From Athalassotoga saccharophila (GTDB taxonomy: Bacteria > Thermotogota > Thermotogae > Mesoaciditogales > Mesoaciditogaceae), in the NCBI RefSeq assembly GCF_009936215.1, contig NZ_AP019551.1, positions 1,078,708 through 1,142,707 of the forward strand: DNA of 64,000 nt, read 5' to 3'. Positions 10,648 through 46,908 of this stretch are shown here, piece after piece. Within the stretch, counting starts at the first letter, position 1; every line of letters begins with the position of its first letter. The translations under genes were made by a program, and so were the position numbers. The notes below the pieces were generated by a model. It saw only the letters and a list, made by a program, of their open reading frames with translations. It was not told the DNA's origin and searched no databases.

Positions 10648-11697
10648 ATGTTATACATCTTGAGCATTTTATCAATCATTTTGGGATTCATAATCTTTTC
10701 CGAGATAACTATGTACAGGCCTCCTAAAATTGAGAAAGTCACAGTTTTACGTAAGATCAAAGGTGAAAAATTTCGCCGTGAATTTTCGATCTTGACTTGG
10801 AATGTAGGTTACGGCGGTCTTGGAAAGAATGCCGATTTTTTCATGAGCGGAGGTAAAACCTCAAAACCAGCAAACAAAAGGGTCGTGGAAGAAAACATGA
10901 ATTCGATTCTTTCCTTTTTATATGATCAAAAATTTGATTTCATTCTTTTGCAGGAAGTTGACTTAAGATCATCAAGGACTTACAAAATAAATGAGGTGGA
11001 GTTATTCTCAAGATTGCCTTACCTTTCTTACTTTGCGATGAATTATAACGTACAATTTGTACCTGTACCTTTACTCTCTCCAATCGGCAAGGTAAAATCC
11101 GGAATTATGATGCTTTCAAAGTTTGAGCCATACAGGGTTGAAAGGTATGCCCTGCCCGGTGATTTAGAATGGCCAAGAAAACTTTTTGAACTCAAAAGAG
11201 CCTTTTTGCTTACGAGGTATCGTGTGGATTCCCATGATTTGCTGATATTGAATCTACATCTTTCGGCCTTTGACGATGGGAAGTTGAGAATGAAAGAACT
11301 TGAATACATCAAGAGTTTCATCTTAAAGGAATATGAGAAAGGTAATTACGTAATAGTTGGTGGAGACTGGAATTTGATAATGCCAGGCCTTTCGAAAAAG
11401 CATTTTGAATTCACAACTTCCGAAAAGTATTTGAAAAATTATCTCGAATTTCCCCTTAACTGGACACAACCAGGATGGCAGTGGGCATTTGATCCGAATA
11501 CTCCTACCAATCGATCTAACGAGAGGCCGTTTGTAAAGGGAGAAAATTTTGTAACAGTCATAGATGGTTTTTTAGTCTCTCCAAATCTCGAGATGATTTC
11601 TGTAAAAACGATTGATTTGGGATTCGAAAATAGCGATCATAATCCTGTACATTTAAAGATTAAACTTAAAGGAGAGTTTAATGGAAGAAAGAACTAA
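10648..11697 (+). CDS. Endonuclease/exonuclease/phosphatase family protein, membrane-anchored
   Basis: The 349-residue product begins with one hydrophobic helix (MLYILSILSIILGFIIFSEI), then an EEP/DNase I-like fold with all expected active-site segments: LTWNVGYGG (Asn), LLQEVDLRSS (Glu), LNLHLSAFD, GGDWNLI (Asp/Asn) and SDHNPVHL (Asp-His). It is a metal-dependent phosphodiesterase or phosphatase; nucleic acid, phospholipid and inositol phosphate are all possible substrates. GGAGG four bases before this ATG decides the start over an ATG 24 bases earlier. It overlaps the CDF transporter gene by 17 bases. Confidence 0.82.
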   Translation: MLYILSILSIILGFIIFSEITMYRPPKIEKVTVLRKIKGEKFRREFSILTWNVGYGGLGKNADFFMSGGKTSKPANKRVVEENMNSILSFLYDQKFDFILLQEVDLRSSRTYKINEVELFSRLPYLSYFAMNYNVQFVPVPLLSPIGKVKSGIMMLSKFEPYRVERYALPGDLEWPRKLFELKRAFLLTRYRVDSHDLLILNLHLSAFDDGKLRMKELEYIKSFILKEYEKGNYVIVGGDWNLIMPGLSKKHFEFTTSEKYLKNYLEFPLNWTQPGWQWAFDPNTPTNRSNERPFVKGENFVTVIDGFLVSPNLEMISVKTIDLGFENSDHNPVHLKIKLKGEFNGRKN

Positions 11698-12574
11698 GCA
11701 GAGCCTAAAGACTGTGAAGATCGGAATTTACGGTAACGCAATACTCGCAATATTCAAAGTACTTCTCGGAATCATAAGTGGATCTATCGCTTTGATAAGT
11801 GACGGAATAGACACGATTATGGACGTTGCAAAATCCATCTTGGCTTATCAGGGCATAAAGGTCGCAGGCCGTCCGCCAGACATCGATCATCCATACGGCC
11901 ATGGTAGGGCCGAAACAATAGTCGCGAATATAATTGGAATTTCGGTCATTTTCGCGGGTTTTATTATTGTTCAGGAATCATTTATCGACCTTGGTCATCA
12001 CGAGGTTATCGCGACTATAATGATCGTAGGCGCATCTATAAGTATAGTGGGAAAGTTCTTTCTTTCTTATTACATGTTCAAAATGGGAAAAAGATTTTCA
12101 AATCAGGCCGTCATTGCAGACGCAAAGGATTACATGAGCGATGTTTTTGCCTCAGTCGCCGTTCTTGTGGGTGGAGTACTTGTCATGATAACTGGAATGA
12201 CGATCTTCGATCCTATCGCTTCTATAGCCGTGGCAGTTTTGATAGTCTGGATGGGCATAGACGTTATAAAGACTGGTCTTCCAGAACTTATGGAAAAACG
12301 TGATCCGGCCATGACAGACCTGATAGAAGAGATCGTTAAAAAGCAAGAATATGTTTTCAACCCCCATCTTATAAGGGTTAGAAAACTCGGATCGTACTAC
12401 ATAGTGGACATGCACGTGGAGATGCCGGGCAAGATGCGCCTTCAACATGTTCACACTATAATGACGTCTATAGAAGACGAAATAAAGAAGAAATTACCAG
12501 AGGTAAAGGAAGTCACGATCCACGCCGAACCGATAGGTGGTGGAGAGGACGAATGGCCGGATATAAAAGAGTGA
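11681..12574 (+). CDS. Cation diffusion facilitator (divalent metal efflux)
   Basis: A 297-residue CDF transporter. It has the two-metal site motifs SDGIDTIMDVAKS in helix 2 (DxxxD) and DIDHPYGHGRAE, a second HxxxD-type pair in ADAKDYMSDVFAS, and a cytosolic C-terminal domain with conserved histidines (VDMHVEMPG, HVHTIM, VTIHAEPIG). The family exports Zn, Fe, Mn or Co in exchange for protons; the exact metal is not decidable here. AAAGGAGAG precedes the ATG. Confidence 0.92.
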   Translation: MEERTKQSLKTVKIGIYGNAILAIFKVLLGIISGSIALISDGIDTIMDVAKSILAYQGIKVAGRPPDIDHPYGHGRAETIVANIIGISVIFAGFIIVQESFIDLGHHEVIATIMIVGASISIVGKFFLSYYMFKMGKRFSNQAVIADAKDYMSDVFASVAVLVGGVLVMITGMTIFDPIASIAVAVLIVWMGIDVIKTGLPELMEKRDPAMTDLIEEIVKKQEYVFNPHLIRVRKLGSYYIVDMHVEMPGKMRLQHVHTIMTSIEDEIKKKLPEVKEVTIHAEPIGGGEDEWPDIKE

Positions 12575-13481
12575 TTTAAATGGAAGAGGATCTCAAAAGA
12601 AGAATAAGGCATGTCATTTTGGCATTTTCTCTTGTTGCCGGAGTTTTTGTCTTCGGCGTTCTCGGTTACATGATAATAGAAAAATGGGATGTCGTCGATG
12701 CACTTTTTATGACCGCAATGACACTGTCAACGGTAGGTTACGGTCTTCCAAAACCTCTCGATTACAACGGTTATCTTTTCACAACGATCCTTATAGTTAT
12801 AGGAATATCCACATATCTTTACGCTATAGGAGTTGTCACCTCATTTTTCTTAGATGGAGATTTAAGAAAATACATGAGATTGAGAAGGATGATGCGTATG
12901 ATAGAAAAAATGGAAGGACACTGTATAGTAATGGGTGGAAGTGAGATAGGAAAGTACGTCGTAAGACAACTTGCAAACAGGAAATATCCATTCGTTTTTG
13001 CAACGCCGACGCCTTCGAGAGTCGATGAAGTAAAGCGTGCAATCTCTGATGTCATGAAAGAAGAAGATTTAATGTACGTCGTCGGAGACGCAATGGACGA
13101 GCAAACTCTTTTAAAGGCTGGCATAAGCAAAGCCTCAACTTTAGTTATTACCCTTTCTGATGACTCCCTTAACGTTTACGTCTCTTTGATGGCAAGAAAT
13201 ATGAACAAGGGATTAAAGATCATAAGCGAGGCCGATAATGTAACTGCCATAAAGAGACTAAGGTATGCCGGCGTAGATAACGTGCTCTCCGCAACGGAGA
13301 TCGTTGGATCGAGGATAGCCTCTCTTGTGCTTAATCCCGCTCTCCAATCCTTTATGGACATAATTCATCAGTCGAACAACATTCACCTTAAAATGGAAGA
13401 AGTTCTCGTCAACGTTAAAAGCCCCTTGGCAGGTAAAACTTTAAAAGAGGCTCAGATAACCCACATTTCGCACATCTTTGA

Positions 13482-15077
13482 TCAGAAATAATATTTTTCA
13501 TATTCAACTCCCAAAAGTCTTATCACTTTGATCTGCAAATCTTTTAAATTCGCTATCTGTGTGGTTGTTTGCCCATCTGTAACCACATTTACAACGGTTA
13601 TGTTCATGAAGTTCTGACATATCCACCTGAATGTCGGCCTGTTTGTCGGCTTTTTCAACTGATTCGGAAATGTTTGCCCTGTCTCTTTCAATGTGCGCCT
13701 TATTTCCCATTCCGAAAGCGAGTACACCAATAACGTCAATACCATTATCATCACAAGTGCCTGAATCCGTCCGGGCTTTTTCAGATACACATCGCTTACT
13801 CCGAAACTTTTGTCTTTCAAAAACCTGAATCCTCTTTCGACCGTTGTCTGGTTTTTGTAATATTCGAGCACTTTTTCATCTTCAAGTTCAATGTCGTTCG
13901 TTGAAAGTATGAATCTTCCGAGTTTTGCTTTGGCCTTTTCAACCGCTTCTTCATTCAGACCTATCTCAGCATCTATTTCATACATTTCTATCGTCGGATC
14001 CCCATCTTTAGGCCTTCCTCTTTTCCCGTCAGTTCTGACTCTTACGCTCTTTATCTCAAACTTGTCGTATTTGAAAAGAGGATGAGCTTCCATCCATTGT
14101 CTGGACTTGTTTATTCCGTCTTCAGAACAAAAATACCGTTCTTTCGTCACAGTCTTTTTCAATGACTTTTCCGCTTCTGTCTTGCTTTTTTTCAAATGCC
14201 TGTCAAATGTTTTCAGTTCCTGTTCTTTAAGATATTTCGAATTCACCATTATCCATTTTTGTTTTATCCCGCCGTAATTGCTTATTTCGGAATACACTTC
14301 ATATCCTTCAATTTTGGTCGGACGAAATTCAACTTCTTTATTTAGCATTTCTTCAGCCTCTTTTATCGTAGACGGCACATGGCTTATCCAGTATGTTGTT
14401 CTGAGTTCGCTAATGTTTTCCGCAGTGTAGAAAGCACTGTCTGCCACATGATAGACTTTCTTGTCTTTGTCAATGTTCTTCCTGATTGCTTTGACCATTT
14501 CTTTGATCGACTCTTTATCCGATTCGTTCCCGTTGTATGTTTTGGCAAACATCGGCATTCCATGCTGATTTACAACCATCCCTATCACGAATTGTTTCAA
14601 ATCCTGTCTGTGATCTTTCGAATGACCGAAGGTGATCTTAAAACCATTCGTCCCGTCTTCCATCTCGTAATTGCCGCTTACACTCACGCTTGTGGTATCG
14701 GTGTGAACGAGGTGAACATCCATTTCAAGTTTGTTCAAAGCGTGCGCCGCTATCTCTTGAAATAATTCCGTTGGACCGTAATCATAAATCTTGTCAAGCA
14801 CTCTGCCGAGAGCGTCATCGTTAAGATCTTCCGGTTTAGTTCCTTCGCCTAAAAGTTTCTCAACATCCCAGTTCTCAAAATAACTCCCTGCAAAGTACAA
14901 TCTCCTGTCAACAAAACCAAGCCCGAGTATGATCATCGCTTTTATTATCGCAGACGTTGAAAGATTGAAGTTCCGGACTTTCGGTATTCTCTTTTCAATG
15001 ACCTCTCCCATTTCAAATTTATCAAATGTCCCAGCCACAAGTCCATGGTGATCAAGTTGCTTTGTAGTGATTTCCAT
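13482..15077 (-). CDS. IS1634-like (IS4-superfamily) transposase
   Basis: A 531-residue DDE transposase. The N-terminus (MEITTKQLDHHGLVAGTF) resembles the DUF4277 region of IS1634-type enzymes; the catalytic aspartates are likely in VHTDTTSVSVSG and YHVADSAFYT, and the glutamate in TTVERGFRFLKDKSF. GGAGG before the ATG sets the start; a longer in-frame extension upstream has no ribosome site. Nothing suggests inactivation, so the element may still be mobile. Confidence 0.9.
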   Translation of the reverse strand: MEITTKQLDHHGLVAGTFDKFEMGEVIEKRIPKVRNFNLSTSAIIKAMIILGLGFVDRRLYFAGSYFENWDVEKLLGEGTKPEDLNDDALGRVLDKIYDYGPTELFQEIAAHALNKLEMDVHLVHTDTTSVSVSGNYEMEDGTNGFKITFGHSKDHRQDLKQFVIGMVVNQHGMPMFAKTYNGNESDKESIKEMVKAIRKNIDKDKKVYHVADSAFYTAENISELRTTYWISHVPSTIKEAEEMLNKEVEFRPTKIEGYEVYSEISNYGGIKQKWIMVNSKYLKEQELKTFDRHLKKSKTEAEKSLKKTVTKERYFCSEDGINKSRQWMEAHPLFKYDKFEIKSVRVRTDGKRGRPKDGDPTIEMYEIDAEIGLNEEAVEKAKAKLGRFILSTNDIELEDEKVLEYYKNQTTVERGFRFLKDKSFGVSDVYLKKPGRIQALVMIMVLTLLVYSLSEWEIRRTLKETGQTFPNQLKKPTNRPTFRWICQNFMNITVVNVVTDGQTTTQIANLKDLQIKVIRLLGVEYEKYYF

Positions 15078-15161
15078 TTTTCTACCTCCGCTGTCTTTTT
15101 CAAATAGATCATAGCAGCAGAAAGGCATAAATCAATGGACTCTATCCGAAACGGTAAATAG

Positions 15162-15170
15162 TGGTATAAT
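15162..15170 (+). promoter_or_regulatory. Possible outward promoter in the insertion sequence
   Basis: TGGTATAAT is an extended -10 box on the plus strand, near the right end of the element and pointing to the cut-off 3' part of the channel gene. The same TGGTATAAT form precedes several genes in the window. No good -35 box is present, so activity is uncertain. Confidence 0.3.
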
Positions 15171-15469
15171 CTTTGTGATGTGCGTCAAGGTTACAGCAAA
15201 TGCTTCTTTGGCTATTACTGACTCTAATCATTTCCCACTTTCAATTTTAAAACATGAGTTTCAAATAAATCCAAAAAACTGTTTTTTATCTGCGGAAAGT
15301 GGGAGATAAGAGAAAAAACAGGACTTTTGGTTGTTGCCATCCAAAGCGGGACTGATTTCAAATTCAACCCCCCATCTGACATGGTTATAAATCCGGGAGA
15401 CATTTTAATTGTGATAGAAAGTAGCGAAAACCAATCGAAGAAATTGAGAGAAATTGCAGAAGGATAAAA

Positions 15470-44328: not shown

Positions 44329-46908
44329 TCATTCCTTTAACTTTCTCAATGTGCTATCAAGCCGTCTTAAAGTCTTTTCGAGTTCAGTCCTTTCTTCCCT
44401 TGCCTTTTGGACAACCTCTTCTGAAGCCTTCTTGACGAACTCTTCATTTGATAATCTTGCATTCAACTTTCTAAACTCTTCGGTGGCTTTAACTATTTTG
44501 GAATTAAGTCTCGCTATCTCGCTGTTGAAGTCAAAATGCTCGTCCATCACCACGAATATCTCGGCCTCAGAGTTAACAGCGGCAGTCATTCCCTTTTTGG
44601 GCTTTATTCGAGAAAGATCGACATTTAGAGCGTTTGTAAGTTTAGATATATATTTGTCGACAGGTGAATCCTTTGGCCATATATTCTTTGTCATTACTAT
44701 GTTTATCTTGGTCGAAGGCGGAAGGTCAAGATCCGATCTTACATTTCTTATTCCCCTTACCGTCTCCATGAAGAAGTTGAAGTTATCGTCTTCAAAATAA
44801 AATTCTTCTGCTGCTTGTGGCCATTTCGACGTTATCAAAAGACCATCAAAGAAGTTGGACCATATTTCTTCGGAAATAAAAGGCATAAACGGGTGCAAAA
44901 GTTTTAAACTCACGTTCAAGACGTAAAGTAGAACATATTTTGTATTTTGATTCAATTGTGGATCTTCGAGTTGAACCTTTGAAAGTTCTATGTACCAGTC
45001 GCAAAAATCTCCCCAGAAGAAATCGTATATCTCATGGGCCGCTATGTTGTAATCGTAAGAATCGATCGAATCCGTAACTCTTTTTATAACCTCATTTGAT
45101 CTCGAAAGGATCCATCTATCGGCCATCGTAAGTCCTTCCGGCCTTGACATTTTTGTATCCTTCGTGTTCATCTCGACGAATCTGCTTGCATTCCATATCT
45201 TGTTTGAAAAATGCATGTAAGATTCAAAGACTCGCTCGTCCAAACTTATGTCCCTTCCTTGGGCGGCGAGCATCGCCAAAGCCATCCTCATGGCATCGGC
45301 TCCGTATTTTGAAATGACTTCATTCGGATCTATTCCGTTTCCAAGAGATTTTGACATTTTCCGGCCAAATTTGTCCCTTACGAGTTGGTGAATGTAAACG
45401 TCATGGAAGGGTACATCTTCCATAAACTCTAATCCCATTACAATCATACGCGCAACCCAGAAAAATATTATATCGAATCCCGTAACGAGCAGATCCGTGG
45501 GATAAAATTTCTCGAGATCTTCCGTTTTCTCGGGCCATCCAAGTGTCGAAAATGGCCAGAGAGCCGATGAAAACCACGTGTCAAGCACGTCTTTATCCTG
45601 ATGAATATGTGTAGAACCACATTTTTCACATCTGTCCGGTGTCGTTTCGGAAACCGTTAAATGTCCACAATCGTCACAGTACCATACGGGAATTCTATGA
45701 CCCCACCAAAGTTGGCGCGAGATACACCAATCGTGGACATCTTCCATCCAGTTAAGATAAACCTTCTCCCATCTTTCCGGATGAAACTTTACCTTTCCAT
45801 CTTTAACGGCCTTGATGGCAGGCTCGGCGAGTTTTTTCATGCTTACAAACCATTGATCGGACAATTTGGGTTCCACCACCGTGTGGCACCTGTAACAATG
45901 TCCGACGGAATGATTGTAATTCTCTATCCTGACAAGATAACCATTGATTTCAAGGTCTTTTACTATTTCCTTTCTTGCCTCTTCTCTTGTCATTCCGTTA
46001 TAACGTCCTTCAAATTTTATATGTGCATTGTCATCGAGCACTTCTACGAATTCGAGATTGTGCTTTTTGCCAATTTCAAAGTCATTAGGATCGTGTGCCG
46101 GGGTAACCTTCAAAGCCCCCGTCCCGAAGGACATATCAACGTAATCGTCCGCTATCACAGGTATAATTCTTCCGACAAGAGGCAGGATAGCATGCTTTCC
46201 TATGAGATCTTTGTACCTTTCATCTTTTGGATTTACCGCTACAGCCGTGTCTCCAAGCATTGTTTCGGGTCTGGTGGTCGCTATGATGATGCTTCCACCC
46301 TCTTTAATTGGATATTTTATATGGTAAAGTTTGGAATTCTCATCTTCGTACTCGATCTCTTCATTTGAAAGGACGGTACCGCAACTTGGGCACCAATTTA
46401 CCATGTATTTACCTTTGTATATTAATCCCTTTTTGTAAAGAGAAACGAAGACCTTTCTTACGGCCCTGCTTAATCCCTCGTCGAGAGTGAACCTTTCCCT
46501 CGACCAGTCACAAGAAGCACCCATCGCCTCAATCTGAGACCTTATTTTTTGTCTGTATTCCCGTGCCCACTCCCACGTTATTCGGACAAATTCATCGTAT
46601 CCGACATCTTCTTTTGTCTTGCCTTCGGAGGAGAGTTGCTTTACGACCATATTTTGTGTCGCAATTCCCGCATGATCTTCGCCGGGAAGCCACAGTGTTT
46701 CTTTTCCATTCATTCTTTGATATCTTGTCACGATATCCTGAAGGACTATGTTAAGCGCATGTCCCATGTGCAATACATTCGTTATATTGGGAGGGGGGAT
46801 TACTATTGAGAATTTGCCATCGCCCGGTCTGGGCTTAAAAGCCCCGCTTTCTTCCCATTTCTTATACCATTTTTTCTCACTTTCGTAAGGAGAATAAAAT
46901 TTATCCAC
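44329..46908 (-). CDS. valS: Valyl-tRNA synthetase
   Basis: 859 residues, class Ia. PPPNITNVLHMGHALNI holds HIGH-like HMGH, GRKMSKSLGNGIDPNEVI the KMSKS loop, the CP1 editing domain has TTRPETMLGDTAVAVNP, and a zinc-like CDDCGHLTVSETTPDRCEKC insert is present. A C-terminal coiled coil ends the protein. The start is a GTG, the only candidate before an in-frame stop. GAGGTG is almost on top of it; a stronger GGAGGA lies 22 bases ahead, across a hairpin (see the leader entry). Confidence 0.97.
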   Translation of the reverse strand: MDKFYSPYESEKKWYKKWEESGAFKPRPGDGKFSIVIPPPNITNVLHMGHALNIVLQDIVTRYQRMNGKETLWLPGEDHAGIATQNMVVKQLSSEGKTKEDVGYDEFVRITWEWAREYRQKIRSQIEAMGASCDWSRERFTLDEGLSRAVRKVFVSLYKKGLIYKGKYMVNWCPSCGTVLSNEEIEYEDENSKLYHIKYPIKEGGSIIIATTRPETMLGDTAVAVNPKDERYKDLIGKHAILPLVGRIIPVIADDYVDMSFGTGALKVTPAHDPNDFEIGKKHNLEFVEVLDDNAHIKFEGRYNGMTREEARKEIVKDLEINGYLVRIENYNHSVGHCYRCHTVVEPKLSDQWFVSMKKLAEPAIKAVKDGKVKFHPERWEKVYLNWMEDVHDWCISRQLWWGHRIPVWYCDDCGHLTVSETTPDRCEKCGSTHIHQDKDVLDTWFSSALWPFSTLGWPEKTEDLEKFYPTDLLVTGFDIIFFWVARMIVMGLEFMEDVPFHDVYIHQLVRDKFGRKMSKSLGNGIDPNEVISKYGADAMRMALAMLAAQGRDISLDERVFESYMHFSNKIWNASRFVEMNTKDTKMSRPEGLTMADRWILSRSNEVIKRVTDSIDSYDYNIAAHEIYDFFWGDFCDWYIELSKVQLEDPQLNQNTKYVLLYVLNVSLKLLHPFMPFISEEIWSNFFDGLLITSKWPQAAEEFYFEDDNFNFFMETVRGIRNVRSDLDLPPSTKINIVMTKNIWPKDSPVDKYISKLTNALNVDLSRIKPKKGMTAAVNSEAEIFVVMDEHFDFNSEIARLNSKIVKATEEFRKLNARLSNEEFVKKASEEVVQKAREERTELEKTLRRLDSTLRKLKE

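Follow-up and report, generated by a model that had tools for sequence, protein, structure and literature searches.

Athalassotoga saccharophila NAS-01, a thermoacidophile of the order Mesoaciditogales, has its source in a Japanese hot spring. Its genome consists of a circular chromosome of 1,957,762 bp and two plasmids, pATS1 (43,703 bp) and pATS2 (43,534 bp) (PMC7163026). The window, i.e., the whole 64-kb stretch of DNA analyzed here, covers chromosome positions 1078708-1142707 and contains an MthK-like K+ channel gene that is divided by an insertion sequence (IS) at chromosome positions 1092167-1094010. In window coordinates, the locus has the following features:

11681-12574, plus strand: cation-efflux (CDF) gene, 297 aa, whose end lies 5 bp upstream of the channel frame.
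12580-13491, plus strand: truncated MthK-like K+ channel frame, 303 aa, with a pore bearing the TVGYG filter, RCK_N (TrkA_N) and the start of TrkA_C.
13454-13459, no strand: target duplication AGATAA, left copy; the uninterrupted congener orthologue (L043) has one AGATAA at the corresponding position.
13460-15303, minus strand (that of the transposase): IS1634-family insertion sequence, 1,844 bp, structurally complete as judged by transposase profile, ends and nine identical copies.
13460-13475, plus strand: left terminal inverted repeat, CCCACATTTCGCACAT, matching the right end at 13/16 positions.
13482-15128, minus strand: transposase frame, 548 aa from ATG 15128, matching NF033559 and DUF4277 plus DDE_Tnp_1.
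15288-15303, minus strand: right terminal inverted repeat, CCCACTTTCCGCAGAT, matching the left end at 13/16 positions.
15304-15309, no strand: target duplication AGATAA, right copy.
15309-15467, plus strand: detached channel tail, 52 codons of RCK_C and a stop, recognized by PF02080 on its own.

The original prediction described a K+ channel gene split by an IS1634-like element with 13/16 end repeats and a perfect 6-bp duplication, and this description was borne out in each of its structural parts. The AGATAA repeats lie at 13454-13459 and 15304-15309 as proposed, and joining the flanks, 13459 to 15310, gave 1,038 nt that are read as one frame of 345 aa followed by a stop. The joined product passed the cut-offs for Ion_trans_2 (44.5 bits), TrkA_N (81.9 bits) and TrkA_C (PF02080, 56.1 bits; cut-off 27 bits). 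The RCK_C tail had been called normal; consistent with this, the 52 residues encoded at 15310-15467 scored 30.2 bits against PF02080 on their own. Conversely, the 303-aa frame, which had been said to lack an RCK_C domain, reached only 15.6 bits for TrkA_C and keeps positions 1-24 of the 71 in the profile. It ends in the ten junction- or IS-derived residues that had been foreseen, THISHIFDQK, the first codon of which uses the last base of the AGATAA repeat, and its stop codon TAA (13489-13491) lies inside the IS. The truncated product retains the pore and RCK_N and loses two thirds of RCK_C. Two routes to expression of the detached tail were considered and rejected. No ATG, GTG or TTG stands in frame between the nearest upstream stop and the tail, which argues against separate translation; as to a promoter supplied by the IS, promoter-like sites occurred at about the level expected by chance, with none close upstream on the plus strand.

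The transposase matched the NF033559 transpos_IS1634 equivalog at 392.5 bits (cut-off 100) over residues 21-542. An alternative start at ATG 15077, giving 531 aa, is likelier than ATG 15128 because a GGAGG motif lies just upstream. The IS1634 family was split from the IS4 family in ‘IS4 family goes genomic’ (2008, PMC2266710), where it is defined by a length of 1,500-2,000 bp, ends of the form C-----YT, AT-rich duplications of 5-6 bp and a YREK motif without its arginine. The element at the channel locus agrees with this definition in its length of 1,844 bp, in its ends CCCACATT and CCCACTTT, in its AT-rich 6-bp duplication, and in the transposase, whose catalytic-region motif reads Y-KN-Q-TTV-E-RGFRFL-K and in which the arginine of YREK is replaced by Q. 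Unlike the usual 5-6 bp, the duplication measures 4 bp at one copy elsewhere in the genome (L047) and 7 bp at another (L052), departures that are of no importance for the family assignment. A search for a near-identical IS in plasmid records found none, the nearest transposase being 46% identical (Methanosarcina). Among the 124,278 16-mers tested in the 64-kb window, the left IS end was equalled by only one other at 13/16 positions; at 45616, a chance-like resemblance to the IS end was noted, and no element was recognised around it. At the right end of the IS, the tip recurs in inverted orientation within 71 bp (15233-15303; CCCACTTTC ... GAAAGTGGG), and a CCCACTTTCAATTTTAAAAC-like stretch, resembling this right tip, occurs within a longer repeat at C2:35786 and C1:1423921.

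The element is present in nine full copies, 100% identical over 1,844 bp, of which seven are chromosomal and each plasmid carries one. Flanking repeats measured 6 bp at seven copies, 7 bp at one and 4 bp at one, and were mostly AT-rich; because matching repeats of 6-7 bp recur at eight of the nine copies, the element stands far beyond chance. Nine identical copies of 1.8 kb are difficult for short reads, and their identity could have been exaggerated by repeat collapse in the hybrid assembly. Even so, there is next to no chance that the element was misplaced at the channel site by the assembly: every copy has unique flanks with a repeat of its own, perfect over 6-7 bp at eight of them, and the filtered MinION reads behind the published assembly, with a mean of 8.6 kb, exceed the length of the element (PMC7163026).

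At seven of the nine sites, the channel included, joining the flanks gave open frames of 243-408 aa. The frames broken encode the channel, an MFS transporter, TauE, an IS256-type transposase, Cmr3, an ABC ATPase and a protein that matched no Pfam family. The channel is therefore one target among many in a recent IS expansion, and the insertion is not a locus-specific device. Uninterrupted congener orthologues were also found for the three other broken genes examined (MFS, ABC ATPase and Cmr3), and for the MFS and ABC ATPase genes the empty-site alignments to the nearest congener were ungapped as well. The copy in the MFS transporter gene (L047, C1:465174-467017) is flanked by a GC-rich 4-bp duplication, GTGG, instead of 6 bp, and the site joined with these 4 bp aligns gap-free to the congener gene. 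The identical copy that splits Cmr3 of a type III-B CRISPR system (L051) lies at C1:1553071-1554914; a second Cmr3-like frame, open and 34% identical, is located at C1:1563874-1564905. A further copy (L052, C1:1412126-1413969) sits inside a frame-broken, partly deleted remnant of a sigma-70-type gene, near an IS256-type transposase and what by eye is a fragment of a group II intron-like reverse transcriptase; elsewhere, at C1:1695174, the genome has a longer sigma-like frame (396 aa). At the ninth site (L053), no frame spans the joined junction.

Each plasmid also carries a solo left IS end, one of 31 bp and identical (C3:7739-7769) and one of 73 bp at 90% identity (C2:37511-37582). These ends are remnants of earlier copies and record fragmentary losses rather than clean excisions. 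Between two IS-end-like stretches of pATS1 (C2:35000-37582) lie two small adjacent gene pairs that by eye resemble toxin-antitoxin modules, one RelE/RHH-like and the other BrnT/BrnA-like.

The mode of loss bears on the proposal that the allele is a reversible off-switch, with a population that carries IS-plus and IS-minus alleles and restores the channel by precise excision when this is useful. The exact target duplication and the intact tail would permit such restoration, and to this extent the term ‘exactly reversible’ holds in principle, as it would wherever a target duplication flanks an IS. As a description of a switch at this locus, it found no support. Neither a second, IS-free channel gene copy nor an IS-free junction is present in the NAS-01 genome assembly; the solo-end relics of 31 and 73 bp show loss by fragments; and in Sulfolobus, according to a published description, precise excision of ISs is rarely detected (PMC4390865). 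Locus specificity is also lacking, because the same element occupies six other frames and the sigma-factor remnant. We consider a switch of this kind highly unlikely.

To place the insertion among relatives, related genomes were searched for the intact gene, as had been suggested. All three congeneric genomes have an intact 345-aa orthologue with no insertion, so that among these congeners there is no shared insertion with a mutated tail. The orthologues are 90, 87 and 84% identical to the NAS-01 channel over residues 1-293, and in all three a 297-aa cation-efflux frame ends 5 bp upstream. Alignment of the empty site to the nearest congener was ungapped, with one AGATAA. Among the 61 genomes searched, intact-type homologues measured 335-379 aa (one 559), with none near 303, and all 29 channel homologues of relatives that were examined reach into the tail. 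In one congener (G002), IS fragments were 90-98% identical to the element, the two longest left-end pieces at 96-98%. Because these fragments are far closer than the channel gene, which has 76.6% nucleotide identity between the two genomes, the IS appears to have moved between lineages after their split.

The claim that the insertion is recent was upheld, although not on the ground first given: a perfect 6-bp duplication is weak evidence of age and does not prove that little time has passed. Judged from sequence, better indications of recency are the nine identical copies, the undecayed tail and the absence of the insertion from all congeners; the nine identical copies also suggest transposition activity. 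Relaxed selection was also considered as a clock for the insertion. On the NAS-01 branch, codons 1-293 have accumulated 8 N and 30 S substitutions and the tail 3 N and 4 S (Fisher p = 0.34), and this clock was rejected, as it gave no signal and the changes were too few. The lack of relaxed constraint fits a recent insertion and is compatible also with a functional short form.

The 303-aa channel might retain function, in which case it would be a working, deregulated channel and the insertion neutral or favored. Its pore, filter and TrkA_N are all intact, relaxed constraint was not seen in the substitutions, and no second full-length channel homologue exists in the NAS-01 genome (one does in G002), so that complete loss might cost something. 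Nevertheless, recent age by itself would explain the absence of decay, and the tail is kept by all intact-type homologues in relatives. Like MthK-type channels (PDB 1lnq and others), the joined protein has a two-TM pore and, after it, a single RCK domain made up of an N- and a C-lobe, and its residues 17-334 matched MthK structures with E about 6e-30; MthK-type channels are Ca2+-gated, and this likeness need not extend to the gating ligand. Additional Ca2+ sites lie in the C-lobe of MthK, which moves together with its N-lobe (PMC9440719), whereas the present allele is without most of this lobe. AlphaFold models were given little weight, being built on four-row alignments (pTM 0.39 and 0.46). 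Residues 238-303 of the truncated product were predicted with pLDDT <50 on a shallow alignment, suggesting a poorly ordered stub; the last 40 residues of the intact orthologue averaged about 60-65, except for a poor stretch near 296-308. These weak models agree in direction only, with tail strands that may be somewhat better ordered in the intact orthologue. On balance, a working short channel is unlikely.

Taken together, these results very probably reflect the transposition of a recently expanded IS1634-family copy into an MthK-like channel gene, as an ordinary loss-of-function or deregulating insertion. In this reading, the element entered the 3′ part of the gene and duplicated the 6-bp AT-rich target AGATAA. 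The present allele would then make, if anything, a subunit that has the pore and RCK_N and lacks most of RCK_C, most likely unable to form a normal gating ring and so misassembled or deregulated, and the allele would in effect have lost its ligand-controlled function. Precise excision would be possible at the usual low, host-mediated rate, with no sign of any having occurred. That K+ control in this thermoacidophile is affected, either by a functional deregulated truncated channel or by coexisting IS-plus and IS-minus cells that flip often enough, appears decidedly improbable. Beyond the gene losses in this strain, the case is an ordinary insertion mutation, another IS1634-family copy, here in a gene of familiar type. 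Its value is as a record that IS1634 has recently expanded in the type strain of a deep-branching lineage of Thermotogota, where seven frames are broken, among them that of a conserved K+ channel. Where NAS-01 is used as the reference for this lineage, these gene losses should be read as strain-level and not as lineage-level.
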